A stretch of DNA of 60,231 nucleotides from a virus. Shown here one piece after another: positions 24,317 to 46,055 of this stretch. The notes beneath the pieces were generated by a model. That model was not told the DNA's origin. It saw only the letters and a list, made by a program, of their open reading frames with translations, and ran no database searches. The position numbers and the translations under genes were made by a program. The stretch is taken from the IMG/VR virus record IMGVR_UViG_3300035034_001059, positions 1 through 60,231 of that record; one strand, 5' to 3'. Position 1 is the first letter of the stretch; the number at the start of each line of letters is the position of its first letter.

Positions 24317-25254
24317 TGTTTTTCGGTAAAAACAGTTTAAATTCAAGGCGTCTTTTCGAAGAACGCAAATTGTATCAAGAGGTAATGGACTCCCCAATAA
24401 ATGGTAATACACTCCTAGATACTTGGTATGACTTTCCATATTATGGTCGTATTGATAACAAATGGGATGTCGTGTTGCCGAAGCCACGAAAAATGAAGTC
24501 GATATCTCAAGACAATACAAAGAAGATATTGATGCTCAATTTTGCAGCAGACATGTTCAATGATTTAGTGGAATACTGGAACTCACTGTTAACTACTGGT
24601 AATTTAAACACCCAGACTTCGAAGATATTGGCATTTGAACCAAAAAGAGCATGGGTGAATGTTGAGCTATTGTACCAAAAGTATATGAACACTCTATACG
24701 GCGTTTTTCAGAAGCACATTTTGGGAAATAAATATAAACCGAAAACAGTTGAAGACATGGTGGATTACTTATCTATCTATTTGAAAGAAAACAAGAACTT
24801 CTCATTAATCAATAAAACAGCATTCACGATATCAAAATTTTCAGATATTCGAGTAACCGGTTTGGTGGTGGACTTAACAGATGATCCAATAGACAACGAT
24901 GAAAAGAAATGGAACTATTTGTCAGATCCCAATTTTGTAGCATTTAAAGACGCTGCACAACGATTTGGCTTCAAAGTTGACCAAAACATACCTTGGCGTT
25001 TAATAGTCGATATTCAATCTCCAGTTGTTGAAGATTATCTGAAAAATTACGATTTAACCTCAGATAACGTTTATGATGTGTTATATGACAAGGTATACTT
25101 GACTGAGATGGAAACTTTGAATGATTTCATGGATCAATTTTGGGAAGCCTTGAAAAACAGATTAAAAGTGCAGAGGAACATGTTCTGCAACGAATCACGA
25201 TCATTAACGATTATACAACGTAAGAAAGCTCCGCAGCAACCAATAAATGAATAG
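24316..25254 (+). CDS. Putative tail/baseplate structural protein, 312 residues
   Basis: ATG 24316 overlaps the preceding TAA. The protein has FPYYGRIDNKWDVVLP-like aromatic segments near the N-terminus and is helical later, with VDLTDDPIDNDEKKWNYLSD and NIPWRLIVDIQSPVVEDYL. Its last codons overlap the start of the repeat-LamG fibre gene by 8 bases, tying it to the baseplate/fibre unit. I recognise no domain. Confidence 0.7.
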   Translation: MFFGKNSLNSRRLFEERKLYQEVMDSPINGNTLLDTWYDFPYYGRIDNKWDVVLPKPRKMKSISQDNTKKILMLNFAADMFNDLVEYWNSLLTTGNLNTQTSKILAFEPKRAWVNVELLYQKYMNTLYGVFQKHILGNKYKPKTVEDMVDYLSIYLKENKNFSLINKTAFTISKFSDIRVTGLVVDLTDDPIDNDEKKWNYLSDPNFVAFKDAAQRFGFKVDQNIPWRLIVDIQSPVVEDYLKNYDLTSDNVYDVLYDKVYLTEMETLNDFMDQFWEALKNRLKVQRNMFCNESRSLTIIQRKKAPQQPINE

Positions 25255-26647
25255 AGATAAACTATTACAATTTTATAAGACTCTGAAAGAAACGGAGTCG
25301 GGTAAAAGCATGGAAGGCATTAAGGGAACGTTAAGAGATCCTTTAAAGCTTATTAATGCTAAGTATAAGCAGTCTTATATCAATTTGCCAGAATTCCAGA
25401 ATAACAAAGATGTTTTCATTATCAATAGAAAAAGATCTCCGTTAGATATAAATAATCCGCAAGTTTCTGAGAAACCACTCTTTCTGGCAGAACAATTTCC
25501 TATTCCAACTTTATTTGAAGATGCAGATTCTTTCGGGAGTCATGCACTTATTGCCAACTACAATCTGACAACAGCACTATTCACTGACGGTGACACGTTT
25601 GGGACACATACTATTAATCTATCATTGTCCACAACACTATTCACAGATGGTGATGCGTATGGAACACACCAGATCGACGTATCACTGCCGATGACGATCT
25701 TCACAGATGGTGATGCATATGAAACACACGTGGTCGACGTATCACTGCCGATGACGATCTTCACAGACGGTGACACGTTTGGTGCACATACTATTACAGA
25801 AGTTACGACACTTACTGCAACACTATTCGTTGATGGTGATGCGTATGGAACACACCAGATCGACGTATCACTGCCGATGACGATCTTCACAGATGGGGAC
25901 ACGTTTGGTACGCATGAAGCGATTATGGAACCCACTGAGATTCTTGGTTCAAAACTCAAAGGTTGGTATGACTTTAGCGATACTTCGGTTTTATATACAA
26001 CGCCAGCTAAAACGACAGCAGTATCGTCAGACGGTGATACTATTGGTGCTTGTGAAGATAAAAGCAGCTCTGGTGCAGGTGATATTACCTCGCTCGACGC
26101 GTCGGAAAGTCCCATATATCGAACATCTGGTGTGTTTTCAAAATCTAGCGCAGAATTTGATGGCGTCAACGACCAGCTCTTCACGGCCACGGGTTTCGTC
26201 GCAGTTACTGACCCACATACTGTAATTACTGTATTAGAGAGTGATGGTTCTGCCGGGACAATCTTTGACAATACTAATCGTAGTGGATATACAATTGTTA
26301 ACGGAGATTCGGGCGGCTCTCAATTATCTGGGAGTATACGCGTCTGGGCTGGCGGCTCCGCAGACACAGTAACAAGCTATCCTTCAACAGCATCTTGGAA
26401 ATGTGAGGTGCTGGTAGATAATTCTGGCGGCGATGAGATTCGCGCTGATAACGCCACAGCAGATTCTCTTACCGTGGGCGCAGGCGGAATGGGCGCGAAC
26501 GAGGGCATCGCCATCGGGAATGACCTCCAATACGGTCTCTTCCCGTTCGGAGGTTATATTGGAGAGCAATTAATTATTCAAGGAACTTTAACCTCAACAG
26601 AACGTGCCGATTTGTATCGATATCTAGATAACAAGTGGGGCACATAA
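25247..26647 (+). CDS. Fibre/receptor-binding-like protein: DGDTFG repeats plus LamG-like domain
   Basis: A 466-residue protein, three parts. Residues 1-88 are an anchoring region. Residues about 89-223 are seven repeats of the same type as the protein at window start (LFTDGDTFGTH and variants such as IFTDGDAYGTH). Residues about 230-466 form a concanavalin/LamG-like jelly roll: LKGWYDFSDTSVLY at its start, a central SAEFDGVNDQLFTATG, and GGYIGEQLIIQ then STERADLYRYLDNKWG at its end. That end is typical of carbohydrate-binding phage domains. Shared repeats suggest the two proteins interact or swap segments. A receptor-binding tip is the likely role. Confidence 0.7.
   Translation: MNRDKLLQFYKTLKETESGKSMEGIKGTLRDPLKLINAKYKQSYINLPEFQNNKDVFIINRKRSPLDINNPQVSEKPLFLAEQFPIPTLFEDADSFGSHALIANYNLTTALFTDGDTFGTHTINLSLSTTLFTDGDAYGTHQIDVSLPMTIFTDGDAYETHVVDVSLPMTIFTDGDTFGAHTITEVTTLTATLFVDGDAYGTHQIDVSLPMTIFTDGDTFGTHEAIMEPTEILGSKLKGWYDFSDTSVLYTTPAKTTAVSSDGDTIGACEDKSSSGAGDITSLDASESPIYRTSGVFSKSSAEFDGVNDQLFTATGFVAVTDPHTVITVLESDGSAGTIFDNTNRSGYTIVNGDSGGSQLSGSIRVWAGGSADTVTSYPSTASWKCEVLVDNSGGDEIRADNATADSLTVGAGGMGANEGIAIGNDLQYGLFPFGGYIGEQLIIQGTLTSTERADLYRYLDNKWGT
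25511..25915 (+). repeat. Seven DGDTFG-type coding repeats, second locus
   Basis: Units are 60 or 66 bp as at the window start. A block of about 65 bp at 25646-25710 recurs exactly at 25832-25896, again 186 bp (three units) apart, the same offset as in the first array. Confidence 0.85.
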
Positions 26648-26715
26648 CGATTCTCAGAAACTTGTTAACGCCTCTCTACACTCGGTGTATGATGTTTACC
26701 AGTGGTGAGGTGCCG

Positions 26716-27876
26716 ATGAGTTATTTTCAAATCTTGGACAACAATCGCGATTGCTACGGAGTATACCAAGACAATCGATTGTTGACTGAAAACGTTGATC
26801 CACAAACCTTGAAATATACGTGGAATTATCATCCCTTATACCCCGCAGAATGCGCCTCTCTATACGTGAAAGGAAAGTCAGTCAGTGAAACTATTCCACA
26901 AAAACATAAGAACGCTTGGCTTGAATTAAAGGAACAAAAAACAGCCTTCCTCAAAAGTTTTCAAAATGCGAAGATCGATTTGAATGAGCATTGCTTCTAT
27001 GATTTGGTGCCAAAATCGTTCCTTTTACGATACAATTTTTACAAGAATGAAGCCACAAAATATGTGATAAAAAATGTGCCAAAACCATCCAATTATGACT
27101 ATTTATATAGGTACGCACAGCTTCTAGACAAGATATCAAAACAGACATTAAACACAGACAAAAGAACAAGTTTTTTATACAAAGCCAGACACAAAAAAGA
27201 GTTAACAAGTTACATAGACTACAATCTTTTTGGAACCGTGACCGGCCGGTTAACAACCAAGAAGCATTCGTTTCCAATTTTAAATATAGAGAAAAACTTT
27301 AGAAGCATTTTGAAGCCTCAAAATCATTTCTTTGTTGAATTTGATTTAAACGCGGCTGATATTAGAACGTTTATATCGTTATTGGGAAAAGAGCAGCCAA
27401 AAACTGATATTCATGAGTGGAATAAACAAAACATCTTCAAAGAAGACATGGACAGATCAGAAGCGAAAGAAAGGTTTTTTGCATGGTTTTACAATCCAAT
27501 CAAGGAAGATGCAGCCTTAGAACAGTATTATGATAAGACCGTGCTACTTCGAAATTTTCTAATGAACGGATCGGTCAAGACGCCGTACAATAGAGTTATC
27601 GAGTCGGACGAATATCATGCTCTGAGCTATCTGGTTCAAAGCACTTCTAACGATGTAGTGTTAAACGCTGCTTGTGAGATAGACGATTTTCTTCATGATT
27701 CTAAATCGCATATAACATGCATGATGCACGACAGCGTGGTTATTGACATGCACAATGACGATGTACCAAAAGTTGAAGAGATTAAGGAAATGATGTCTGA
27801 TTCAAAAATTGGCTATTTTCACAATACATCAGTTTCAGTTGGCAAAGATTACGGAAATTTATATGAGATATCATAA
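26716..27876 (+). CDS. DNA polymerase, family A (Pol I type) catalytic core
   Basis: A 386-residue protein; ATG 26716 follows GAGG. All three polymerase motifs are present. Motif A is VEFDLNAADIRTF with D210. Motif B is RSEAKERFFAWFYNP with R247, K251, F255 and Y259, spaced exactly like R754/K758/F762/Y766 of E. coli Pol I. Motif C is MMHDSVVID with D339. The Phe at the 762-like position is expected to discriminate against dideoxynucleotides. No 3'-5' exonuclease domain is evident in the roughly 200 residues before motif A, and the 5' nuclease is a separate gene (30937-31938). It heads the replication cluster. A family C polymerase is also encoded. Confidence 0.85.
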   Translation: MSYFQILDNNRDCYGVYQDNRLLTENVDPQTLKYTWNYHPLYPAECASLYVKGKSVSETIPQKHKNAWLELKEQKTAFLKSFQNAKIDLNEHCFYDLVPKSFLLRYNFYKNEATKYVIKNVPKPSNYDYLYRYAQLLDKISKQTLNTDKRTSFLYKARHKKELTSYIDYNLFGTVTGRLTTKKHSFPILNIEKNFRSILKPQNHFFVEFDLNAADIRTFISLLGKEQPKTDIHEWNKQNIFKEDMDRSEAKERFFAWFYNPIKEDAALEQYYDKTVLLRNFLMNGSVKTPYNRVIESDEYHALSYLVQSTSNDVVLNAACEIDDFLHDSKSHITCMMHDSVVIDMHNDDVPKVEEIKEMMSDSKIGYFHNTSVSVGKDYGNLYEIS

Positions 27877-28775
27877 TGTCTGATACAATGAGATTAATCG
27901 GTATCGGCTCCGCAGGAGCGAATATTGTTAAACAATTTGACCATTATGATGTGTATGATTTGACGTATGTTGATGAGGAACATCACGATTTTGACAAAGG
28001 AACAGTGATTCAAAAACCAACGGAAAAACCTTATCATGAGGCATACGATCAACTTGATTATGACTGGGCCGGCCTTGAAGGCGATTCGAAAGAAATACAG
28101 CTTTTTGTCTGTGGTGCAAGTGATGTATCTGGCGTTGTATTACAGGTTTTGCAACATTTAAATAGTGTTGGCTGTGAAATAGAAGTATTTTTTATAATGC
28201 CAGATTATAAATTTTTATCACATATTGAGAAACTTCAGAACAGAGTTACGTTTGGTGTATTACAAGAATATGCACGTTCAGGTCTGTTAAAGAATATACT
28301 AATATTTGATAACAACATTCTTGGCAAAATGATTGGAAATGTTGCAATTTCCAATTACTACAACAAGATTAATGATCATATTTGTAGAACAGTTCACATG
28401 CTCAATTATTGTACTAAGAATAAACCCATTTTTGGCAACAAAGGAGAATTCTTAGAAACCACTAGAATAGGATGTGTAGGTTATGGACTATTAGAGGAGG
28501 ATATAAACCTATTTTATGATTTAAAGTGGCAAAGCGATGACAAGGAAATTGTATATCCACTGGAAATCCAGTATAACTTTTTCGTTCCCAAGGAGAAAAT
28601 AGATAATGACGTTAACCTAATGACAACAATTTTGGAAACAGTAGAAAAAAGAGAAGAACAGTACAAGACGATAAGCTATGGAGTTTTTGAGAATGATGCT
28701 GAACAGGACGATGTAACCGTGCTAGTATGGCTTCACACCTCAAAGGTTCAAGACACAAAACACAAAACACAATAG
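27876..28775 (+). CDS. Divergent FtsZ/tubulin-like protein
   Basis: A 299-residue protein whose ATG overlaps the polymerase stop (TAATG). Elements of the FtsZ/tubulin GTPase occur in order. RLIGIGSAGANIVKQF (6-21) matches the first nucleotide loop. LFVCGASDVSGVVLQVL (76-92) sits where FtsZ has GGGTGTG. IEVFFIMPD follows as the next strand, then ILIFDNNIL as in FtsZ's IPN-type strand. GYGLLEEDINLF lies where the T7 loop would be, and a final ISYGVFENDAEQDDVTVLVW resembles the FtsZ C-terminal strand pair. The signature loop is degenerate, so GTPase activity is uncertain. Possible roles are a cytoskeletal filament that positions DNA or interference with host division. Confidence 0.55.
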   Translation: MSDTMRLIGIGSAGANIVKQFDHYDVYDLTYVDEEHHDFDKGTVIQKPTEKPYHEAYDQLDYDWAGLEGDSKEIQLFVCGASDVSGVVLQVLQHLNSVGCEIEVFFIMPDYKFLSHIEKLQNRVTFGVLQEYARSGLLKNILIFDNNILGKMIGNVAISNYYNKINDHICRTVHMLNYCTKNKPIFGNKGEFLETTRIGCVGYGLLEEDINLFYDLKWQSDDKEIVYPLEIQYNFFVPKEKIDNDVNLMTTILETVEKREEQYKTISYGVFENDAEQDDVTVLVWLHTSKVQDTKHKTQ

Positions 28776-28796: not shown

Positions 28797-29588
28797 ATGG
28801 CATCTCCCAATTTAGAAAAAATGAAAGAGCAACTGGCTGCACTGAAAGACAATCGTAGCATCAATTCAAGTGGTGGTCCGAGTGTCTTCTGGAAGCTGAC
28901 ACCCGGTAACCATGATATACGCGTGTTGCTTTATGATGATGATCAGTTCTCACGTGAATTTCATTGGCACTACAATGTCAACGGAAACCGCTACCTTTGC
29001 GCCAAGAAGTCGTATGGTAAAGAGTGCCCGGTGTGCGATTTGGCATCAGAAATCTGGAATCAGTATGTTGCAACTGAGCAAGCAGGAAATCCAGATGATT
29101 CTTTGAAAGAAACAGCGAAAGAACTGTTCTCGTCAAAGCGTTATTACCTACCTGTTTTGGTTCGTGATTTGGAAGACGAAGGTCCAAAACTTTACTCATG
29201 TGGCGTTCGCGCTCTGGAGCAGATCTTGTCGATCGCTCTGGATGATGAAAGCAAGGATATGTTCGATCCGAAGAAAGGTTTTGATTTGAAGGTTTCCTAC
29301 TCACTGGCTAATCCAAATGACCGCCGTTCAGCGAGCACAACGATTAACCGTCGCGTGAAAACTTCACCGTTATTCTCGGAAGGTCCGGTTAATGACGAGA
29401 CCGTCGAAGAACTCCGCGCTGAAATCACCGGTCCAGAAGATGTATTCGAATTGCCGGATATTGAAGCCATCCGTGCTGATTTGGATTCTGTATTCGGAGC
29501 CGCATCAGATGATGCCGGTACTGCGAAGTATGCAGCGGAAGAAAACGATGTGACCGCCGCGTTCGCGAAGCTTCAAGCTAGCGACTAG
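28797..29588 (+). CDS. Single-stranded DNA-binding protein (T4 gp32-like)
   Basis: A 263-residue protein with GAGGAA upstream. The core has FWKLTPGNHDIRVLLYDDD, a His/Cys zinc site (HWHYN...YLCAKKSYGKECPVCD, about 56-82) and an acidic C-terminal tail (about 200-263) of the kind gp32 uses to contact replication partners. It coats unwound DNA for replication and recombination and sits between the polymerase and UvsX genes, as expected. Confidence 0.85.
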   Translation: MASPNLEKMKEQLAALKDNRSINSSGGPSVFWKLTPGNHDIRVLLYDDDQFSREFHWHYNVNGNRYLCAKKSYGKECPVCDLASEIWNQYVATEQAGNPDDSLKETAKELFSSKRYYLPVLVRDLEDEGPKLYSCGVRALEQILSIALDDESKDMFDPKKGFDLKVSYSLANPNDRRSASTTINRRVKTSPLFSEGPVNDETVEELRAEITGPEDVFELPDIEAIRADLDSVFGAASDDAGTAKYAAEENDVTAAFAKLQASD

Positions 29589-29638: not shown

Positions 29639-30781
29639 ATGGCAAAGAAAAAGAAGTCAAAACTAACAACGAGCCAAATGAGGAATTTGGTAAACAAAGC
29701 GGCAGGTTCGAATGTTGCTTTTGATTTGCGAAAAGAAAATCCGACCGAAGTGAAATATTGGATCCCAACCGGGTCAAGAGTATTAGATTCAATTACTTGT
29801 AAAGGCCAGCGAGCCGGAATTCCCGGCTGCAAAGTTACCGGTATCGCTGGCCTTCAATCTACAGGCAAAAGTTACCTCGCCACTCAAATTGCTGCAAACG
29901 CTCAAAAGATGGGCATAACAGTTGTATACTTTGATTCGGAATCTGCGATATCTCCAGAATTCTTGGCAGATTGTGGCGTAGACTTGAAAAACTTTCTATA
30001 CGTCCAAGGTAAATCAGTAGAATTTATTTTGGAACAAATTCAAAACATTTTAAATATTACAGATAACAGAGTATTATTTATCTGGGATTCGCTGGCATTG
30101 ACTGCCACGAACAACGAATTAGAAGATGATTTCAATCCTCGTAGTGACATCGCAGAAATGGCGCGTATCTTATCCAAGGGACTGAAAAAGCTTTTGATTC
30201 CTATTGCTGACAAAGAATGTGCTCTTTTGATTCTCAACCAATTGAAAGAGAATATCACATCTGACAGAATCGAAAAGATGGTGAATCCTTATACAACTCC
30301 CGGCGGCAAAAGTCCGAAATACGCATATTCTCTTGAAGTATGGTTGACTAGACGAACGTCAAACAGTGCTTACCTTGAAGATGAGCATGGGAACAGGGAG
30401 GGTGGTGAGGTTAAGGCGGAAATCAAAAAATCTCGCTTTGGAACAGAAAGACGCAAATGCAAGTTTGATATTATCTGGACATATCCACCTCGAATTGCTG
30501 ATAAAGAGTCGTGGTTCGAAGTTATCAAAGATAGCGATCGCTATAAACAGAACGGCGCATATTTTCAGATTGACCTCACCGGTAACGGCGATTGGACCAA
30601 AAATCGTTTCAGCAAAGATTTTCTTCCTATGTTAAATAAAGATAAAGATTTCAGAAAAGCGATCGAAGAAATGCTAGATGATGAGTTGATTATTAAATTC
30701 GCCAAAGAGCATGACGCATTGTTAAAACCAGAAGATGACGAAGAAAACGATGAGTCCGAAGAAGAAACCGAAAAAGAATAG
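29639..30781 (+). CDS. uvsX: UvsX/RecA-family recombinase
   Basis: A 380-residue ATP-dependent strand-exchange protein. Walker A is GLQSTGKS (71-78), Walker B-like VLFIWDSLAL is near residue 145, and VVYFDSESAISPEFL and CALLILNQLKENI match the RecA/UvsX core. The C-terminus is acidic (EDDEENDESEEETEKE), as in many recombinases. It would pair with the gp32-like SSB next door. The end overlaps a small membrane-protein frame. Confidence 0.88.
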   Translation: MAKKKKSKLTTSQMRNLVNKAAGSNVAFDLRKENPTEVKYWIPTGSRVLDSITCKGQRAGIPGCKVTGIAGLQSTGKSYLATQIAANAQKMGITVVYFDSESAISPEFLADCGVDLKNFLYVQGKSVEFILEQIQNILNITDNRVLFIWDSLALTATNNELEDDFNPRSDIAEMARILSKGLKKLLIPIADKECALLILNQLKENITSDRIEKMVNPYTTPGGKSPKYAYSLEVWLTRRTSNSAYLEDEHGNREGGEVKAEIKKSRFGTERRKCKFDIIWTYPPRIADKESWFEVIKDSDRYKQNGAYFQIDLTGNGDWTKNRFSKDFLPMLNKDKDFRKAIEEMLDDELIIKFAKEHDALLKPEDDEENDESEEETEKE

Positions 30782-30956
30782 TTTTCAATTCTGGATGAGC
30801 CTGATGATAGGTTCGCTGATCGTAGCATGCGCCTTGCAATTCGCCTCGTTCTATGTTATAATGAACCCCTACCACCTCATCGTGATAGGGGTTGTCCATT
30901 TAATCTTATTCATTAGCCTTCTTGTGGTAATAAATCATGACCAATTCGGAAAATAA
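30735..30956 (+). CDS. Small two-helix membrane protein
   Basis: A 73-residue frame overlapping the end of uvsX by 47 bases and the next gene by 20. After a Lys/Pro-rich start (KKKPKK) come two hydrophobic helices, MSLMIGSLIVACALQFASF and LIVIGVVHLILFISLLVVI. A second ATG at 30750 is possible. No clear ribosome site is seen and a promoter-like sequence lies inside, so it is less certain than its neighbours. Confidence 0.45.
   Translation: MTKKTMSPKKKPKKNSFQFWMSLMIGSLIVACALQFASFYVIMNPYHLIVIGVVHLILFISLLVVINHDQFGK
30834..30862 (+). promoter_or_regulatory. Sigma-70-type promoter candidate before the FEN nuclease gene
   Basis: TTGCAA (30834-30839), a 17-base spacer, then TATAAT (30857-30862) preceded by TG at the extended -10 position. 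This is the best classical promoter match noticed in the window. It lies 75 bases before the nuclease start, inside the small membrane-protein frame. Confidence 0.5.
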
Positions 30957-31938
30957 AAAAGTAATTCTTTTAATTGACGCACTCAACACATTCTTTCGCA
31001 GCTACGCTGTCGATCCGAGTATCAGTTCTAAAGGTGAGCATATCGGCGGCTGCAAAGGTTTTCTCAAACAAATAAACAAGTTCTGTCGTGAAATGGCACC
31101 GGACGAAATTCATGTTGTTTGGGACGGAGAAGGTGGCAGTAAGAAACGTAAGACAATGAAGAAGGATTATAAGGAAGGCAGAAAAGCTGTCAACCCTAAA
31201 AATTATAATCGTAACATTGAGATTCCACAGACTGATGAAGAGATTAAAGAAAACAAAGTCTGGCAATTGAAGCGCTTGATGGAATATCTTAACGAAACAC
31301 CTATCAAGCAGTATCTAGTGGACAATGTTGAGGCCGATGATATTATTGCCATGTTGAGTAACAAATATTTCAAGGGCTACAATAAAGTTATCATATCAAA
31401 TGACAAAGATTTTCTCCAATTAGCCGATCACGAAACAATCGTGTACCGACCAGCTGTCAAGGGTGTGATGACTCGTGATGATATCATTGAGAAATATGAA
31501 GTCCATCCAGAAAACATGGCACTCTCCAGAGCCATCATAGGCGACTCTAGTGACAATCTCCCGGGTGTCCCGGGCATAGGCTTCAAGACTCTCGTAAAGG
31601 TCTTACCGTCGATCTCAGGGAGTGCTACGATGATGCTGGAAGACGTGATGAACGCCATGTCAGATGTTGAAGAGAAAGATCGTCTGAAAGCACACAATTC
31701 AATTTTGGAACACAAAGACAGGATTGATCTAAACTACAGAATGATGCAATTGTACAATCCTAAGATGGGCCACGCAACTGTTCGTATTGTTGAACAAGTG
31801 GTTGAAGAGGAGCTATACAACTATTCTAGGTTCGAGTTAGAAAAAATGATGATTGAAGATGGTTTCGGTGAATATAACTGGAATGCCATGCACGCTCGTT
31901 TCCGAGGAATGTTGTATGACCAAAAAAATGAAGATTGA
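30937..31938 (+). CDS. 5'-3' exonuclease / flap nuclease (T4 RNase H-like, FEN family)
   Basis: A 333-residue protein with metal-binding acidic motifs of the FEN/PIN fold: VILLIDALNTFFRS at the N-terminus, HVVWDGEGG near 65, VEADDIIAML near 130, and VIISNDKDFLQLADHE. A helix-hairpin-helix follows in SSDNLPGVPGIGFKTL. It would remove RNA primers and flaps, supplying the 5' nuclease missing from the short family A polymerase. The last codons overlap the start of a small Cys-motif protein. Confidence 0.88.
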   Translation: MTNSENKKVILLIDALNTFFRSYAVDPSISSKGEHIGGCKGFLKQINKFCREMAPDEIHVVWDGEGGSKKRKTMKKDYKEGRKAVNPKNYNRNIEIPQTDEEIKENKVWQLKRLMEYLNETPIKQYLVDNVEADDIIAMLSNKYFKGYNKVIISNDKDFLQLADHETIVYRPAVKGVMTRDDIIEKYEVHPENMALSRAIIGDSSDNLPGVPGIGFKTLVKVLPSISGSATMMLEDVMNAMSDVEEKDRLKAHNSILEHKDRIDLNYRMMQLYNPKMGHATVRIVEQVVEEELYNYSRFELEKMMIEDGFGEYNWNAMHARFRGMLYDQKNED

Positions 31939-32494: not shown

Positions 32495-33877
32495 ATGACA
32501 ATAAATAAAGAAGATTTTTCACAATTTGGCAAATCATTTCAAGAAAAGCTAGCTTGCTTAATACTGAATGATCGCTCTTTTTCGGAGCAAGTAGAAGAGG
32601 TACTGGAAACAAACTTCTTTGAATATGAACACCTGCGCATTTTTGCTGAATTGATTTTCAATTATCGACATGAATATGGTGTTCATCCATCAAGTGATAC
32701 ACTGGAAACAATTCTAGCAACTGAATTGCAGAAGTATAACGAAGAAGACCGAGAAATGGTCTTAGAATTCTTTGAAGATGCAGAACAGAAGTGTGGCAAG
32801 ATTGGAGATGCTGAATTCATCAAGAATTTGGCTCTTGACTTTTGCAAAAAGCGTAAACTATACGGAGCGATGGTTAAGTCTATCGACCTATTGGAAAAAA
32901 AGAAGTTTGATGAAATCAAATATGAAATCGAAGAGGCATTAAAACTTGGTAACGATAACAATTGCGGCCATGATTACAAGATTGATTTGGAAGAAAGGTA
33001 TCTCCTGAAAGCGAGAAGTCCTGTCACGACTGGTTGGAGCAAAATAGACGAGATTACACAAGGTGGTCTGGGTAAGGGCGAGCTAGGTGTAATTATTGCT
33101 GGCACTGGTGCCGGTAAATCGATCGCACTGGCACACCTTTCAGCTAAAGCTGTGAGTCAAGGTAAAACAGTTCTTTACTACACCTTTGAATTGGCAGAGG
33201 AAACAGTTGGCCTGCGACATGACTCGTGGTTTACTGGTGTTTCTCTTAATGAATTAAAAATATACAAAGAAACAGTAAAAGAGATAGTTAAAGAGGTCGA
33301 AGGCGAACTTATCGTCAAATATTACCCGACCAAAACAGCGTCACTCATGACACTAAGAAACCATATCGAAAAAATTAAGAGATTAGGTAAGAACATAGAT
33401 TTGATTATAGTTGATTATGGTGACCTGCTTCAACCACCGCGCACTCGCAATAGAGACGATTTGGAGTACGCTGACATTTACGAAGGTTTACGCGGTATAG
33501 CAGGAGAAAATAAATGCCCACTTTGGACAGCTTCGCAGAGTAATCGCGGCGGTAGAAACGCCGAGATCGTCACAATGGATGCCGTCGCTGATTCATATGC
33601 TAAGTGTTTTTGTGCCGATTTCATCTTTTCTATCTCCAGAACAATCCAAGACAAAGAAACGAAAACAGGCAGATTCTTTATAGCCAAAAACCGAAACGGC
33701 CCTGATGCCGGAATTTATCCTATTGTTATGGATCCCGAATTTGTCAAGATTCGTGTTTTAGAACCATCGGGACAATCTGTACAAGATATGGTCGATGACG
33801 CGGCCGGCAAACAACAAGTAAAGATGAAGCAAAAATTGTCAACAGCTTGGCAAAGAGTGAAGAATAATGACGATTAA
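32495..33877 (+). CDS. Replicative DNA helicase, DnaB/gp41-type
   Basis: A 460-residue protein. The N-terminal helical domain is about 1-160. The RecA-like motor has Walker A GTGAGKS (203-209), YYTFELAEE, Walker B LIIVDYGDLLQ (about 305) and a WTASQSNRGG sensor segment. It would unwind the fork in the 5'-3' direction as a hexameric ring. No primase was recognised next to it. The stop overlaps the next small gene. Confidence 0.88.
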   Translation: MTINKEDFSQFGKSFQEKLACLILNDRSFSEQVEEVLETNFFEYEHLRIFAELIFNYRHEYGVHPSSDTLETILATELQKYNEEDREMVLEFFEDAEQKCGKIGDAEFIKNLALDFCKKRKLYGAMVKSIDLLEKKKFDEIKYEIEEALKLGNDNNCGHDYKIDLEERYLLKARSPVTTGWSKIDEITQGGLGKGELGVIIAGTGAGKSIALAHLSAKAVSQGKTVLYYTFELAEETVGLRHDSWFTGVSLNELKIYKETVKEIVKEVEGELIVKYYPTKTASLMTLRNHIEKIKRLGKNIDLIIVDYGDLLQPPRTRNRDDLEYADIYEGLRGIAGENKCPLWTASQSNRGGRNAEIVTMDAVADSYAKCFCADFIFSISRTIQDKETKTGRFFIAKNRNGPDAGIYPIVMDPEFVKIRVLEPSGQSVQDMVDDAAGKQQVKMKQKLSTAWQRVKNNDD

Positions 33878-34455: not shown

Positions 34456-36867
34456 ATGACATATACGAAAGAAGAGGTTACGAAGGACACAAAAAGATAT
34501 TTCAAGGGCAATGAATTAGCTACAAACGTGTTCTTCAAATATGCCTTGAAAGATGAAGATCAGAATTTTTTAGAAAAGGATCCTGATGACCTTCATCGGC
34601 GACTTTCTTCTGAGTTTGCTAGAATAGAAAAGCAATATCCCAATCCTCATCATGATGAGGATATATACAGAAAATTACAATATTTTAAGTATATTGTTCC
34701 ACAGGGCAGCCCCATGTATGGGGTTGGTAACCCAAAACCTGTGTCTCTTTCTAATTGTTTTGTTATCCCCTCCCCTGAAGATAACATATCTTCAATCCTT
34801 GATGCTGCCAAAAATATTGCAAATCTTAGTAAACGACGTGGTGGCGTCGGTCTCGATATATCGAAGTTAAGGCCAGAAGGCGCAAACGTTAACAATGCAG
34901 CAGAAACAAGCTCTGGTGCATGGTCGTTCGCAGATTTGTTTTCATTTACCGGTCGCCTTGTCGGACAAAACGGCCGCCGAGCCGCATTAATGATCACAAT
35001 TGATGTGCAGCATCCTGATGTAATGCAATTCGTCACAATGAAAAATGACAAAACTAAGGTCACCGGAGCAAATGTATCAGTAAGATTGCGTGACGATTTC
35101 ATGGAAGCTGTCATTGCTGATGAAATGTACACGCTACAATGGCCACTCGATGTGCCAAACCCGGAAATTACTAGAGAAGTGAAAGCTTCTGACATTTGGA
35201 ATCTAATCATTACCAATGCCACAGAGCATGCCGAGCCCGGTGCGCTGATGTGGGATACGATGATTCAGAATCTTCCCTCACACTTTTACCCCGGTTTTGA
35301 GACACTGAGCACAAACCCTTGTGGTGAAATTGCCATGAATAATGATTCATGTCGGTTGATCTCACAGTGTCTGAAATGGTATGTCAACGATCCATACACA
35401 AATTTCGCCAGCTTTGATTGGAAAGCATTCGAAGAGGACGCCCGAATGGCAACCAGATTGAGTGACGATTTGGTTGATTTGGAAATTGAGAAGCTTAATG
35501 ATATCATTGCTGCAACAGACGATGAGTCAGAAAAGATTCTGTTTCAAAATTTGCTCTATTCTGCGCGGTGGGGGAGGCGTACTGGACTGGGTACCCACGG
35601 CCTCGCCGACGCCCTCGCGCGCCTGTGTTTAAGATATGATTCTGAGGAAGCTCTGGAGTTCGTTGATAAATTATACGAAAAAAGAAAACTCATTGTATAT
35701 GACGAAAGTATAGAACTAGCCAAGGAACGTGGTGCGTTTCCAATTTTCGAGTGGGAAACGGAAAAAGACTGTAAATTCTTTGAATCATTCCCTGATGACC
35801 TCATTGAAAAGATGAAGAAATACGGCAGACGCAACATCGCGCTGCTGACGAACGCTCCAACCGGCTCAGTCTCAATCGAATCACTATGTGACGGTTCTGG
35901 CTGCGAACCTGTATTCAGATTCCTGATGACTCGACGCCGCAAACTGAGTCATAACGAAACAGACGTAGTTCCAGACTTTGTTGATGAATTAGGAGACCGT
36001 TGGATCGAGTTTGAGGTTAAGTCTCATCTATTGAAAGAATATTTAGAGATTACTGGAAAAGATATAGAAAAAGATGGATTACCTGATTATTTTGTTACCA
36101 GTGACGAAATTGATTGGATTAAACGCGTCACTATTCAGGCGGCGATGTCGAAGCATATTGACCATTCTATTAGTTCAACAATCAACTTGCCCCGAGATAC
36201 ACAACCTCATATAGTTGGAAACATCTACAAAGAAGCATGGAAGCAAGGTTGCAAAGGTGTGACAGTATATGTAGATGGTTCACGAGATGGCGTGTTGTTG
36301 ACAGAAGATGACCAAGACAACCTCGGAATTACATACTATGATGCAACACCTCGGCCAGAAGAAATAGAATGCGATATACATCAAGCTAAAGTGAACGGTA
36401 AAGATTGGGTTATTTTGGTAGGACTTCTTGAAGGAAAACCGTATGAAGTTATGGGTGGAGCAGCAACACAGGTTGAGATACCCGAGGATTACAAAAAAGG
36501 TAAAACAATTAAAAGAAAGTATAAAACGGTGCCAAACAAATATGATTTGAAAGTGAATGGATTCACGATCAAGGATATTGTAGCAATGTTTGACAATCCT
36601 GATAATGCTGTGTTAACTCGAATGGTAAGTACATCGTTGAGACATGGTGTCCGTCCCTCATTCTTAGTTGAACAATTAAAGAAAGATAAAGACGCGAGTT
36701 TCGCCAGCTTCTCCAAAGTTCTATCAAGAGTATTGAAGGAATATATAGATGATGGTACAAAAGTAGTATCAGGTGCAAAAGGAGAATGCACTGACGGCGA
36801 TATTCATGACTTGACTTACAGTGAAGGGTGCGTAATTTGTTCTAAGTGTGGTTGGACGGCCTGTTGA
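34456..36867 (+). CDS. nrdJ: Ribonucleotide reductase, class II (adenosylcobalamin-dependent)
   Basis: An 803-residue enzyme reducing ribonucleotides to deoxyribonucleotides. Key residues are C101 in LSNCFVIPS, the radical cysteine C289 with E291 in NPCGEI, a partner-position C299, and NAPTGSVSIE near 473. The C-terminus ends in a Cys-rich CVICSKCGWTAC, as in NrdJ, where it takes part in re-reduction. No separate beta subunit or glycine-radical motif is present, which supports the B12-dependent class. The enzyme works with or without oxygen but needs host cobalamin. It feeds the two DNA polymerases and dUTPase encoded nearby. Confidence 0.9.
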   Translation: MTYTKEEVTKDTKRYFKGNELATNVFFKYALKDEDQNFLEKDPDDLHRRLSSEFARIEKQYPNPHHDEDIYRKLQYFKYIVPQGSPMYGVGNPKPVSLSNCFVIPSPEDNISSILDAAKNIANLSKRRGGVGLDISKLRPEGANVNNAAETSSGAWSFADLFSFTGRLVGQNGRRAALMITIDVQHPDVMQFVTMKNDKTKVTGANVSVRLRDDFMEAVIADEMYTLQWPLDVPNPEITREVKASDIWNLIITNATEHAEPGALMWDTMIQNLPSHFYPGFETLSTNPCGEIAMNNDSCRLISQCLKWYVNDPYTNFASFDWKAFEEDARMATRLSDDLVDLEIEKLNDIIAATDDESEKILFQNLLYSARWGRRTGLGTHGLADALARLCLRYDSEEALEFVDKLYEKRKLIVYDESIELAKERGAFPIFEWETEKDCKFFESFPDDLIEKMKKYGRRNIALLTNAPTGSVSIESLCDGSGCEPVFRFLMTRRRKLSHNETDVVPDFVDELGDRWIEFEVKSHLLKEYLEITGKDIEKDGLPDYFVTSDEIDWIKRVTIQAAMSKHIDHSISSTINLPRDTQPHIVGNIYKEAWKQGCKGVTVYVDGSRDGVLLTEDDQDNLGITYYDATPRPEEIECDIHQAKVNGKDWVILVGLLEGKPYEVMGGAATQVEIPEDYKKGKTIKRKYKTVPNKYDLKVNGFTIKDIVAMFDNPDNAVLTRMVSTSLRHGVRPSFLVEQLKKDKDASFASFSKVLSRVLKEYIDDGTKVVSGAKGECTDGDIHDLTYSEGCVICSKCGWTAC

Positions 36868-40211: not shown

Positions 40212-40460
40212 ATGATCATGTTCATTCCGCACAAATCTCTTTCAGGTTCATCGCGCGACATCATCGGGGTTATTCTCCAAGAATTAAGTTTAACAAATCA
40301 TTCGGCGTCCCTTTTGAGATTTTTATATTATGAGAACATATTTTTAAGGTGGTTCACATTTTCTCTATATCCAAAATCTGTTGGAACAGAGAATAACAAA
40401 CCTTTTGTTAGTTTTCATTCCAACAATACTACGCCAATTCACATCATGAGGTATGCATGA
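40212..40460 (+). CDS. Hypothetical protein, 82 residues
   Basis: It starts at ATG 40212 (an earlier-frame choice is not available) and ends in ATGA overlap with the polymerase gene. It is rich in Phe, Ser and Leu with YYENIFLRWFTFSLYP. Function unknown; coding is supported mainly by the coupled overlap. Confidence 0.5.
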   Translation: MIMFIPHKSLSGSSRDIIGVILQELSLTNHSASLLRFLYYENIFLRWFTFSLYPKSVGTENNKPFVSFHSNNTTPIHIMRYA

Positions 40461-43400
40461 CAGAGCGAAATAAATCAAAATTAAAATTTGTCAATCTTCA
40501 CGGCCACAGTTGTGCATCTGTTTTTGATGGTTTAGGTTATCCATCAGAGCATATGGATTTCGCATATGAAAACGGCCTCGACGCGATTGCTCTGACTGAT
40601 CACGGCAATATGAATAACTTGCCACTGCAAGTATTCCATGCCAAAAAGATGGAAAAAGATGGTCGTGAATTCAAACCCATTTATGGTGTTGAAGGATATG
40701 CATTTCCTGATTTACAGGAATGGCAAGACACCTACAAACAATCAAAAGAGAAGGATGACAGTGATTCGGCTATCGTTGTAGAAACTGAAGAAAGAGACAT
40801 CAAGAGCATTTTGAAGCGCCGACGACACATGGTGCTATTGGCGAAAAATCAAGACGGTCTAAACAAGCTCTTTGAAATGATTACTCAGTCATTCGAAAAG
40901 CCGTGGCACTACTACTTCCCGCGCATTGACTACAAAACACTAAAGAAGTTCGCCGGTGGCGATATCATTGCGACGAGCGCATGTCTTGGTGGAGTGTACG
41001 CTGGTAACATGTGGGAAAACTATGACTTTGAATTGAGCAAGGAAGAAAACGACGCCAAGGTGCTTAACGCTATGCGCGAGACATCTGAGCAGATGTTGGA
41101 CATTTTTGGAGAAGATTGGTACGGTGAAATTCAATGGAACAACATTCCTGAACAACACTTACTTAACTCATACGTTATTCAAATCTGCAAAGAATTCAAT
41201 ATCAAGCTTGTTTCTACGTGTGATGCACATTATCCCAATCCTGAGCTGTTCGCCGCGCGCGAGATGTATAAGCGCCTCGGCTGGCTGAGAAACAAAGAAG
41301 ATCTAGAGCCACTGCCGGAAAAAATTGAGGATATGGGCTATCAACTCTGGCCTAAGAATGGCGACCAGATGCTCGAATCGTTTCGCAACTCTACGGTCCA
41401 CCCAGATATCAAAGACTATCTGGCAGAAAATGATATTGAGTATGATGAATCGATGGTAATTGGGTCGATCGAAGAATCGTACAATATTGCACACAATAAA
41501 ATTGAGAGTTTCTATCCTGACAGTACGGTGAAGTTGCCCGATTTTGTTGTACCCGAAAACAAGACAGCCGACGAAGCGCTGAGTGAAATGGCTTTCGCCG
41601 CACTTGCAGAAAAAGGTTATGATGCATTGCCATCGTATTATGATCGTTTAGAAAAAGAACTCGCGGTTATCTCTAGTCGCGGCTTTTCTAAATATTTCTT
41701 GACAATGAAAGAAGTGACAGACGAAGCGAAGCAGTTATACCTTTGTGGTCCCGGTCGAGGTTCTGCTGCTGGTTCGCTGCTGGCATATATGCTAGGAATT
41801 ACACAGGTTAATCCATTGCGCTGGAATACACAGTTCGAGCGATTTTTGCGGTCTGACGCGACTGACTACCCTGATATTGATTTCGATATTAGTCACAACT
41901 CAGACTTCCGTGATCATTTGATTGAAAAATGGGGTAAGAACACTGTTGTCTCTATCTCAAATATCAATACCATGCAACTGCGGTCTCTTGTTAAGGATAT
42001 CTCAAAGTATTATGGTATTGATTTCACCGAGGTTAACAAGGTCACCAGCACAATGATGCAGGAAGCGACACCTCGTGCAAAGCAAAAGCACGGAATCAAG
42101 GCTGGTGTTTATACACCAACATATGAGGAAGTAAAAGAGTTCTCCGAGTCACTTCAAGCGTTCTTACGCAAATACCCGAAGATCGAAAAGTTCATTGATA
42201 GTTTGCATGGCATGCCACGCTCTGTGTCACGGCACGCTGGTGGTGTGGTTATTGCTGACAATCTCAACAAACACATTCCATTGATTAATAGCAAAGGCAC
42301 GACGCAGGTGCCGTGGACTAAAGACACACTAGAACCGATGGGTTTCATCAAATTCGACCTTCTTGGTTTGGATACCTTAAAAATGATGCACCGCGCGATC
42401 GCGAATATCCTTCGGCGATATCATAACAAAACTGATATCACCATCGATGATATCACTGGTTATTACAATGAGAAATTACACCCTGATGTGATCGACCTTG
42501 AAGACCAAAAGGTATACAAAAATGTATATCATGATGGTAAATGGGCAGGTGTGTTCCAATTCACTGAACAAGGCGCGCAGAATTTTTGCCAAGTTGTTAA
42601 ACCGACGAATATCATTGAATTAGCGTCGATCACTAGTATTCAACGTCCCGGTCCTCTGGCGGCTGGCGTTGATGAAGAATATGGTGAGGCCAAAGAATAC
42701 CCTCACAAGATTAAATTCATGAATGATATTCATGCTGAGGTAACGGCTGAAACATACGGTTTCTTGATTTTCCAAGAGCAGATTGCCGAAATGGCACACA
42801 AACTTGGGAAAGATATCTCTCTGGATGACGGCAACAAGCTTCGGAAAGCACTAACTAAGAAGAATAGCGAAAAATCCAAGAAAATGAAAGAGGAGTTGTA
42901 CGACAAGTTTGTCGATGGCTGCATGGAAAAGGGTATGACGCGCAAACAAGCCAAAGAAACGTGGCAATTGTTTGAGTATTTCTCCGGTTATGGTTTCAAC
43001 AAATCACACGCCGTTTGTTACAGCTTAATCTCCTTTCAGACTGCATGGCTATTAACATATTATCCAGAGTGCTGGCTCGCCGCGTTCCTTAACGAAGAGT
43101 CGGAAACAAAGATGGAAAAAGCTATTGCCATCGTTAAGAAGCTCGGCTACAATGTTAAACGCCCAAACATCAATTATTCATCAGACCAATGGGAAATCTC
43201 TAAAGATGGGTCAACCCTGTTCCAGCCACTGACTGATATTGATGGAGTTGGTGATGCTGCATATAAAGAGATACTGCCACATCGCCCATTCGAACTAATT
43301 GAGGATTTATACTATCATAAAGACATCCGCTGGTCTAAGGTGAATAAGACTGTCATTGATAGGTTGTGTCGTTCAGGGGCACTCGATGACCTGATTGATG

Positions 43401-43903
43401 ATCGTTTCACCGGATCAAAACATTTCTGGTCTGTGCTGCTGTCCCGGGAAAAGAAGAAAGAAAACTTCCTAGAGCTTATTGAAAACCCGGAATATAGAGA
43501 AGAAGGTGATTTCTCTGATATGGAGCGCATCGCCTTCCTTTCCGACTTGACATCGGTGCTGCCGATTGATATGATAGTAGACGACGAAATGTTGAAACAC
43601 TTCGATCAGTTAGACATTGGTCCACTATCAGAGAATCAGGTGGGTCATAAGTATAGTTGGTGTATCCCTGTCTCATTCCGCAAGCGAAAGACAAAGAAAC
43701 GTGGCTCTCCATATTATGAAATTATGGTAACTGATTCGACGTTTCAAATGTCACGCGTTCGTGTTTGGAACATTCGAACGGCACGATCTGAGCCGCAGCT
43801 TTATCGTCCGTATATTGTCAAAGGTGTTGAATACGATACACAGTGGGGGTTTTCTACTGGTTGGCGCGCGCCGTTCGAAAAAAACTGGGTTATTGTAGGA
43901 TAA
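40457..43903 (+). CDS. dnaE: DNA polymerase III alpha-like (family C, DnaE type)
   Basis: An 1148-residue replicative polymerase. The PHP domain opens with NLHGHSCASVFDG (H15, H17) and ALTDHGN. The palm has LCGPGRGSAAGSLLAYMLGI (about 432-451) and the catalytic YPDIDFDIS with D473, D475 and D477. RSVSRHAGGVVIA, GLDTLKMM, VFQFTEQGAQNF and GYGFNKSHAVCYSLI are further family C landmarks. The C-terminal region has HhH-type and OB-like parts (about 905-1148), close to bacterial DnaE in length. A phage holding both this and a family A polymerase is unusual. It could be the main replicase or serve another phase of infection. Confidence 0.92.
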   Translation: MTERNKSKLKFVNLHGHSCASVFDGLGYPSEHMDFAYENGLDAIALTDHGNMNNLPLQVFHAKKMEKDGREFKPIYGVEGYAFPDLQEWQDTYKQSKEKDDSDSAIVVETEERDIKSILKRRRHMVLLAKNQDGLNKLFEMITQSFEKPWHYYFPRIDYKTLKKFAGGDIIATSACLGGVYAGNMWENYDFELSKEENDAKVLNAMRETSEQMLDIFGEDWYGEIQWNNIPEQHLLNSYVIQICKEFNIKLVSTCDAHYPNPELFAAREMYKRLGWLRNKEDLEPLPEKIEDMGYQLWPKNGDQMLESFRNSTVHPDIKDYLAENDIEYDESMVIGSIEESYNIAHNKIESFYPDSTVKLPDFVVPENKTADEALSEMAFAALAEKGYDALPSYYDRLEKELAVISSRGFSKYFLTMKEVTDEAKQLYLCGPGRGSAAGSLLAYMLGITQVNPLRWNTQFERFLRSDATDYPDIDFDISHNSDFRDHLIEKWGKNTVVSISNINTMQLRSLVKDISKYYGIDFTEVNKVTSTMMQEATPRAKQKHGIKAGVYTPTYEEVKEFSESLQAFLRKYPKIEKFIDSLHGMPRSVSRHAGGVVIADNLNKHIPLINSKGTTQVPWTKDTLEPMGFIKFDLLGLDTLKMMHRAIANILRRYHNKTDITIDDITGYYNEKLHPDVIDLEDQKVYKNVYHDGKWAGVFQFTEQGAQNFCQVVKPTNIIELASITSIQRPGPLAAGVDEEYGEAKEYPHKIKFMNDIHAEVTAETYGFLIFQEQIAEMAHKLGKDISLDDGNKLRKALTKKNSEKSKKMKEELYDKFVDGCMEKGMTRKQAKETWQLFEYFSGYGFNKSHAVCYSLISFQTAWLLTYYPECWLAAFLNEESETKMEKAIAIVKKLGYNVKRPNINYSSDQWEISKDGSTLFQPLTDIDGVGDAAYKEILPHRPFELIEDLYYHKDIRWSKVNKTVIDRLCRSGALDDLIDDRFTGSKHFWSVLLSREKKKENFLELIENPEYREEGDFSDMERIAFLSDLTSVLPIDMIVDDEMLKHFDQLDIGPLSENQVGHKYSWCIPVSFRKRKTKKRGSPYYEIMVTDSTFQMSRVRVWNIRTARSEPQLYRPYIVKGVEYDTQWGFSTGWRAPFEKNWVIVG

Positions 43904-44718: not shown

Positions 44719-44974
44719 AGAAAAAGTAAAAATATTTGGTGTTTTTTATATGATAAAGAACGACTCATCTAAGCACCCACGCATTCGCGAATGTAGTACT
44801 TTGGGAGAAGCACAACGCTTCGCCAAATACAAAGTTTTGAGATCTCAAGATAGAATGTTCCGCAACATTACAAAATATTCTTACGAAAAACAAATACATA
44901 CTATCGCTGGTCACAAAGAAGAGGTGCTTTATTGTACCGAAATTAAAATAATACGAGGTAAAATGAATGGATGA
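44711..44974 (+). CDS. Hypothetical protein, 87 residues
   Basis: ATG 44711 lies inside the end of the dUTPase gene and the stop overlaps the next gene. It is a basic protein with KIFGVFYMIKND and GEAQRFAKYKVLRSQDR. Function unknown. Confidence 0.65.
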   Translation: MDKEKVKIFGVFYMIKNDSSKHPRIRECSTLGEAQRFAKYKVLRSQDRMFRNITKYSYEKQIHTIAGHKEEVLYCTEIKIIRGKMNG

Positions 44975-46055
44975 TAAAATTGCTTTAACATACGATGACG
45001 TTGCACTAATTCCGCAATATTCTGAAATTGAAAGCAGAAGTCATTGTGATATATCCGTTGAGTTAAAAACACCAAAGAAAACAGAGAAGCTTCGTATACC
45101 GCTAATTGGTGCGCCAATGGACACGATCTGTGAAGCAGAGATGTGTATCGCTCTTTGGGAAGAAGGAGCAATAGGAATATTGCATCGTTATATCACCATC
45201 GACGAACAAGTGGAAATGCTTCAACGTGTGGTCGCCGACGATGCAACTTGTTTCGCCGCTATTGGTGTAACGGGGGACTATCTCGATCGCGCTACTGTAT
45301 TATATAACAACGGAGCCCGACATTTCTGCATTGATGTTGCACACGGAAGCCATATTTTTGTGAAAAAAGCCATCACAGCTTTGAGGCACTCGTACAAAAA
45401 TATACACATCATGGCCGGCAATGTGTGTGATTATGACGGCGCCTTCCGTTGTTTTAAATGGGGCGCTGATTCAATCCGTGTCGGCGTTGGCGGTGGAGCC
45501 GTGTGCACAACACGGCTCGTCACTGGACATGGTGTCCCAAATTTAACAGCAATTGAATTGGCTCGCAAAGCTAAAGAGGATTATCAAGAACTGGAAAATC
45601 GAGATTGTTATATTGTTGCTGATGGCGGCATTCGAACATCTGGCGATGCCGCAAAAGCTTTCGCCTTTGGTGCAGATTATGTGATGGTCGGTTCAATGTT
45701 ATCCGGCTGCGAAGAAACACCATCTGTTGTACAATATCGCGGATTTTTGGATCAGCTCGACGCCAGCACAGTTGAACAGCAACCCCAGAAACAAGTTGTA
45801 TATCGTGGTATGGCGTCACAGCCCGCTCAGAACGCCAACGGACGCGTCTCTGTTGTGGAAGGGGTCGAGGTCAAAGTTGACATGAAAGGCCCTGTAACTG
45901 GGGTTCTACTCACTTTCAGGGATGGTTTGCGCAGCGCCTTGAGCTATACTGGTGCAACGAACTTATCAGACTTCAAAAAGACGGCCCGATATATACGTGT
46001 ATCTCCTGCTGCTCAAATTGAAAGCCAACCTCACGCAAAGTTTGATAATCAGTAA
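44967..46055 (+). CDS. IMP dehydrogenase / GMP reductase family enzyme
   Basis: A 362-residue TIM-barrel enzyme of guanine nucleotide metabolism. The N-terminus has LTYDDVALIPQYSEIESRS and IPLIGAPMDTI, the family start. GADSIRVGVGGGAVCTTRLV holds the catalytic C180, ADGGIRTSGDAAKAFAFGAD the phosphate site, and VVYRGMASQPAQ the flap region. At this length it lacks the CBS pair of bacterial IMPDH. Sequence alone does not settle the direction (IMP to XMP, or GMP to IMP). With NrdJ and dUTPase it forms a nucleotide-supply set. Confidence 0.8.
   Translation: MDDKIALTYDDVALIPQYSEIESRSHCDISVELKTPKKTEKLRIPLIGAPMDTICEAEMCIALWEEGAIGILHRYITIDEQVEMLQRVVADDATCFAAIGVTGDYLDRATVLYNNGARHFCIDVAHGSHIFVKKAITALRHSYKNIHIMAGNVCDYDGAFRCFKWGADSIRVGVGGGAVCTTRLVTGHGVPNLTAIELARKAKEDYQELENRDCYIVADGGIRTSGDAAKAFAFGADYVMVGSMLSGCEETPSVVQYRGFLDQLDASTVEQQPQKQVVYRGMASQPAQNANGRVSVVEGVEVKVDMKGPVTGVLLTFRDGLRSALSYTGATNLSDFKKTARYIRVSPAAQIESQPHAKFDNQ

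Follow-up and report, generated by a model that had tools for sequence, protein, structure and literature searches.

A degenerate FtsZ/tubulin-fold protein encoded in the replication operon of a clade of T4-related phages

Why should a phage encode, between its DNA polymerase and its single-stranded DNA-binding protein (SSB), a protein built like FtsZ that does not have the glycine-rich loop of FtsZ? The question is raised by an open reading frame of 299 aa at positions 27876-28775 (plus strand) of a 60,231-nucleotide stretch of viral DNA, IMG/VR record IMGVR_UViG_3300035034_001059, referred to here as the window. We use the label TUB for its product, a degenerate FtsZ/tubulin-fold protein. 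A first-pass annotation of the letters had described the gene as a degenerate, replication-linked member of the FtsZ/tubulin superfamily. Here we ask whether the gene is real, whether the assignment is correct, and what the protein may do.

A conserved gene between polymerase and SSB

The gene upstream of TUB encodes a family-A DNA polymerase of 413 aa (26635-27876, plus strand; PF00476, 4.8e-10; phrog_17, 3.5e-18), which keeps the catalytic residues, with D237, K278, Y286 and D366 as invariant columns. Downstream lies a gp32-like SSB (28797-29588, plus strand; PF08804, 1.1e-13; phrog_1192, 6e-22). The start codon of TUB sits within the stop codon of the polymerase (TAATG, 1-nt overlap), so that both the location between polymerase and SSB and the coupling to the polymerase, as first annotated, hold. 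The order continues on the plus strand with a UvsX/RecA-like recombinase (29639-30781; phrog_97, 9.7e-54), a 5'-3' exonuclease (30937-31938; PF02739, 6e-30), a DnaB-like replicative helicase (32495-33877; PF03796, 3.7e-20) and the large subunit of ribonucleotide reductase (34456-36867; PF02867, 1.7e-87). In addition to the PolA-type polymerase, the phage encodes a DnaE-type DNA polymerase III alpha (40457-43903, plus strand; PF07733, 1.8e-57).

A gp23-like major head protein, a tail sheath and a tube protein place the window phage among the contractile-tailed, T4-related phages, and an amidase suggests a host with peptidoglycan. Judging by the IMG sample series, the clade is presumably mostly marine. 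The same phage encodes an IMP dehydrogenase/GMP reductase of guanine-nucleotide metabolism (44967-46055; PF00478, 6.7e-87), a Cpn60/TCP1-family chaperonin (50447-52036; PF00118, 3e-54), a metallopeptidase/VWA-like protein (DUF2201; 58404-59603), and two proteins with many short repeats around LFTDGDTFGTH (25247-26647 and 831-1718), which are probably tail or fibre parts. A library of defence systems gave nothing relevant.

The window protein alone matches no Pfam, PHROG or PDB family, and tblastn with four TUB members (the window protein and three others) found no match in 50,697 annotated phage records. Relatives were found among uncultured viruses. By means of an alignment of helicases from four phages that share this operon order, 80 IMG/VR loci were fetched; among their open reading frames phmmer identified the window gene, an identical copy of it and 36 further relatives. 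A scan of IMG/VR with the TUB alignment revealed at least 596 stretches encoding relatives, and 126 distinct full-length members were collected. The median dN/dS of 0.057 (29 close pairs) indicates purifying selection. With 126 distinct full-length homologues, purifying selection and a constant gene position, the open reading frame is a genuine gene and not a chance one. A conserved acidic tail, DDQDI[GS], ends 15 of the 126 members and is possibly a short binding motif.

Few candidates for relatives came from elsewhere. A scan of the genomes of cellular species gave a single match, in a WOR-3 metagenome-assembled genome (L094, CP070664.1); we rejected its reading as a prophage, since the phage-like replication-operon stretch is flanked by runs of N, and take it as a scaffolding artefact. 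The genes between polymerase and SSB in Microcystis phage Mel-JY01, Flavobacterium phage immuto and LR756508 were considered as homologues, but reading them revealed no sign of a relationship, and LR756508 gave no match to the TUB family profile. No description of the family was found in the part of the literature that our search covered. Absence from the families and phage records searched is in line with the new branch proposed at first, and we consider TUB a new family within the FtsZ/tubulin superfamily that is not FtsZ, PhuZ or TubZ.

The position of the gene is remarkably constant. In the helicase- and TUB-based scans, TUB lies between polymerase and SSB in all 99 loci holding both; this set includes loci that were retrieved with TUB itself, and some of its loci lie on the same contigs as others. 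The gap between polymerase and TUB is often -4 (ATGA), and that between TUB and SSB is mostly below 100 bases. A less biased scan based on the polymerase, counted by hand and with some contigs recurring from the earlier scans, found TUB in 29 of 29 loci with polymerase, SSB and a window-like polymerase, against 0 of 38 in a sister clade whose operon is arranged in the same order. As far as can be judged, TUB is universal in its clade. DnaE was found in 16 of 18 TUB-clade records (TUB itself being detected in 16 of those 18) but in none of six sister-clade records. In 11 and 13 large records, which may be incomplete, no sliding clamp of either the phage gp45 type or the bacterial beta type turned up; the polymerases are thus left without an obvious phage-encoded partner.

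Fold and homology to FtsZ

Structure prediction and comparison, as suggested with the first-pass annotation, were carried out using AlphaFold2 on 31 sequences (the window protein and 30 homologues; mean pLDDT 84.9, pTM 0.86). The model has the two-domain architecture of tubulins, with a Rossmann-type GTP domain, an H7 linker and a C-terminal activation domain. In a Foldseek search against the PDB, the best 50 matches were all FtsZ, TubZ or CetZ (top match 1.9e-14), with TM-scores by query length of 0.62-0.73 and an identity to FtsZ of ~12% in the fold alignments. The FtsZ-like order of motifs that had been read from the letters is borne out by model and matches. A prediction from the window sequence by itself was poor (pLDDT 41), yet its Foldseek list was already headed by FtsZ. 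The best viral structural match (BFVD) is A0A6J5RW92 (1.5e-15, TMq 0.76), an FtsZ cell division GTPase of an uncultured Caudovirales phage, with 452 aa compared to the 299 aa of TUB.

Sequence comparisons lead to the same superfamily when profiles are used. The TUB profile matches a profile of 20 FtsZ sequences in the expected register (73.7%, 2.9e-5), whereas six unrelated families from the same loci, used as controls in the same comparison, score 0.05-0.6. A stronger match (96.3%, 1.5e-9, across 254 columns) connects TUB to a second phage FtsZ-like family, of which 67 sequences were collected and which in turn matches FtsZ (98.2%, 2.8e-14); through these two steps TUB is linked to FtsZ by sequence. 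Searches with single sequences or curated families are less sensitive: the window protein reaches only 0.034 against FtsZ TIGR00065, no TUB member matches Pfam Tubulin at its curated cut-off, and a single E. coli FtsZ is not significant against the TUB-side (A4) profile (0.8%). Because the single-sequence comparison with FtsZ fails, the claim of homology rests on profile-profile comparison and structure.

A different origin would be indicated by several TUB members that give short matches to Pfam TrkA_N (best 8.8e-06), as expected if TUB were an NAD-binding Rossmann protein, TrkA-like and not homologous to tubulin. However, these matches are only ~28-63 residues long and fall on either T1 or the G-box, two glycine loops that tubulins also have, and no full-length match to an NAD-binding Rossmann protein was found. 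The FtsZ, TubZ and CetZ structures that fill the best 50 PDB matches, the significant profile chain to FtsZ, and an H7 linker and tubulin C-terminal activation domain already visible in the predicted model are all at odds with this reading. We rejected it, the structure fitting FtsZ, and regard it as very improbable. The predicted fold is that of a tubulin/FtsZ protein, no unrelated Rossmann family matches better, and membership of the FtsZ/tubulin superfamily, as originally annotated, is near certain.

The second phage FtsZ-like family occurs in some of the same genomes. In the 190,528-bp TUB record of L076, the second superfamily gene (L288:744-1874) matches Pfam Tubulin (7.9e-9) and TubZ-like_C (2.6e-6) above the cut-offs; another member lies at L290:1240-2445 on the minus strand. 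The G-box of this family is glycine-rich (GVSGGSGGGTVN or GGGGGTGSS) and its T7 loop reads TFDxxD. The second gene and full-length TUB are found together in ten records: eight of the 18 fetched by the second gene, and the L076 and L086 records. It was not found in the window, nor in most large TUB records, several of them 146-192 kb long. A narrow pattern retrieved 74 IMG/VR loci of the family, which in several contigs lies ~32 kb from TUB; among annotated phages, Bacillus phage G alone gave a match, and a weak one. Several phage-labelled records matched by FtsZ carry an ordinary bacterial ftsZ (one beside lpxC) and are probably bacterial contigs. With a GTPase-type and a degenerate FtsZ-like gene paired in some genomes, the route leading from an active GTPase to a pseudo-GTPase can be tested directly.

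Nucleotide-site motifs lost and kept

Columns were counted over 107 TUB members, and motifs were searched in the 126 distinct full-length members. The T1 loop, GIGSAGAN (residues 9-16; 27900-27923, plus strand), corresponds to GxGGxGxN of FtsZ and is well conserved (G11 in 106/107, G9 in 100/107, G14 in 91/107 and N16 in 62/107). At the T4/G-box position (residues 80-86; 28113-28133, plus strand) the window protein has GASDVSG in place of GGGTGTG, just as the first-pass annotation had stated. The family consensus here is G[SA][GS]x[IVS][SA]G, with G80 in 103/107, and GGGTG[ST]G occurs in none of the 126 members.

The degeneracy goes deeper than initially described. The FtsZ-like T7 acid motif NxDxxD is likewise found in 0/126 members, and the T7/H8 region (residues 184-197; 28425-28466, plus strand; R197 in 99/107) is shorter than in FtsZ. 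Helix H8 appears to be missing, as the model contains no helix between the strands at 186-188 and 198-205, and the T3 region appears shortened. Other elements persist. Asn146 (28311-28313, plus strand; N in 92/107), in a register taken from profile alignment and merge, corresponds to the T6 Asn of FtsZ (PND). The start of H7 reads Y-x-x-x-N (residues 162-166; 28359-28373, plus strand; F-x-x-x-N in FtsZ), with Y/F162 in 84/107 and N166 in 96/107; a motif of this type is present in 104 of the 126 members. We take Y162 and N166 to be equivalent to Y224-N228 of tubulin, on the guanine side. A hallmark of the family itself, LQEYARSG at the end of H5 (residues 129-136; 28260-28283, plus strand), was found by motif search in 122 of 126 members, with Q130 and R134 in 107/107, S135 in 106/107 and E131 in 105/107.

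We read this pattern as a base pocket that is mostly kept, with the phosphate and catalytic parts lost. With the G-box signature replaced and the T7 acids and H8 gone from sequence and model, TUB appears to have lost GTP hydrolysis. It probably still holds a guanine nucleotide, by means of the T1 loop, the T6 Asn and the aromatic/Asn pair of H7, although the degenerate G-box may bind no nucleotide at all. The protofilaments of phiKZ TubZ, tubulin and FtsZ share an interface made up of T7, the base of H8 and S9 (PMC3678025). Loss of T7/H8, part of this canonical interface, argues against an ordinary dynamic filament of the PhuZ/TubZ type.

Possible roles and comparison with known systems

We hypothesize, with a probability of about 0.48, that TUB is a component of the phage replisome. 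TUB would be a phage-specific member of the FtsZ/tubulin superfamily that has lost hydrolysis and probably still holds guanine nucleotide; it would be translated together with the PolA-type polymerase and work as a fixed component of the replication machinery, where it would bind the polymerase, the SSB or both and serve as a scaffold or regulator responsive to guanine nucleotide, and not as a cytomotive filament. The fold, the homology chain, the synteny, the purifying selection and the loss of catalytic motifs were computed; nucleotide binding, a protein partner and the role of scaffold or regulator are what we infer. Several considerations weigh against a replisome role. Synteny indicates shared inheritance and expression but not contact, clade is a confounder of the correlation with DnaE, the absence of clamps from fragmentary records proves nothing, and the phages of the sister clade, whose polymerase is of the same type, replicate without TUB. 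The more specific proposal is a tentative one, put somewhat below even odds: TUB would be an obligatory pseudo-GTPase subunit of the replisome (for processivity, scaffolding or nucleotide sensing) in a large uncultured T4-related clade with PolA-type and DnaE polymerases, and would descend from a phage FtsZ-like GTPase. If this is true, DNA replication in these phages makes use of a protein whose fold was originally cytoskeletal.

The main rival to a replisome role starts from the cytoskeletal nature of the superfamily. TUB could be a filament or co-filament subunit that positions or compacts replicating phage DNA, either as a static polymer with a new interface or as the non-catalytic partner of the second FtsZ-like GTPase, as alpha- is to beta-tubulin. 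The hallmark LQExARS and R197 probably lie, by topology, on the bottom (T7-side) face, and the FtsZ-like protein encoded in ten TUB records has both a glycine-rich G-box and a TFDxxD T7 loop. The T7 mutant D198A of PhuZ polymerises constitutively (PMC10299810); hence loss of hydrolysis does not by itself exclude polymers, and by analogy a non-hydrolysing tubulin such as TUB could still polymerise. Erosion of T7/H8, which with S9 form the canonical interface (PMC3678025), speaks against a filament, and a partnership is hard to reconcile with the absence of the second gene from most TUB records, even several of 146-192 kb, and with its location ~32 kb away while TUB stays tied to polymerase and SSB. 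We consider a filament role unlikely on balance. Less likely still is that TUB poisons host FtsZ, acting as a dominant-negative mimic that blocks cell division during infection. Many phages inhibit FtsZ. T7 mutants of tubulin-superfamily proteins can be dominant negatives, as is PhuZ D198A (PMC10299810), but TUB shares only ~12% identity with FtsZ in the fold alignments, its contact regions, phosphate at the top and T7 at the bottom, are altered, and it lacks the C-terminal tail of FtsZ; host-takeover genes are also not typically so well conserved or so strictly confined to a replication operon. This role seems improbable to us, and we return to TUB as a replisome component as the preferred reading.

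Compared with FtsZ, TUB shares the two-domain fold with H7 linker, the T1 loop, the T6 Asn and the aromatic-x3-Asn of H7, and matches it in structure over the full length (1.9e-14). It differs in the absence of GGGTG[ST]G, of the T7 catalytic acids, of H8 and of the C-terminal tail, and in residing in a replication operon instead of a division cluster. Its closest relative by profile, the second phage family, has in common with it DN at T6 and the N-x7-H motif of H7, but retains the glycine-rich G-box, the T7 TFDxxD and the H8 region, is located elsewhere in the genome and occurs only in some phages. TubZ and CetZ are among the 50 best structural matches (TMq 0.66-0.73). These proteins have roles in plasmid segregation or archaeal cell shape and carry canonical GTPase motifs.

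FtsZl1 and FtsZl2 are, like TUB, diverged FtsZ-like families with a distinct genome context, and the search for such families relied on the GTP-binding loop that both of them carry (Makarova and Koonin, 2010; PMC2875224). They are cellular and have the GGGTG(S/T)G loop, whereas TUB lacks it and would escape such a motif search; the context of FtsZl1 consists of VWA, GTPase and kinase genes, that of TUB is a phage replication operon. No match to Pfam Tubulin_2 was listed for TUB members. Since TUB evades motif- and Pfam-based searches, hundreds of copies have remained unrecognised in virus databases.

PhuZ of phiKZ-like phages is, like TUB, a phage-encoded protein of the tubulin superfamily. 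It has the tubulin T4 signature and the catalytic T7 Asp and forms GTP-driven filaments, whereas TUB lacks both motifs. The similarity between the profiles is weak and confined to the N-terminal part (63%, 6.9e-5), and in tblastn searches of the phage collection a PhuZ query found PhuZ-type proteins while TUB queries found no match. At its C-terminus PhuZ has H11 and an acidic knuckle, which bind the next subunit; in TUB little sequence follows the last pair of strands, and 15 of the 126 members have a tail with DDQDI. Of the chimallin phages, 66.2% carry PhuZ, which they can do without (PMC10299810); TUB, in contrast to this optional protein, is universal in its clade as far as can be judged and tied to polymerase and SSB. 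The phage tubulins known so far serve as accessory filaments for moving DNA or virions. TUB, without the catalytic motifs, is tied to a replication operon; it thus either brings DNA replication into the range of the superfamily or represents a new kind of filament that is not dynamic.
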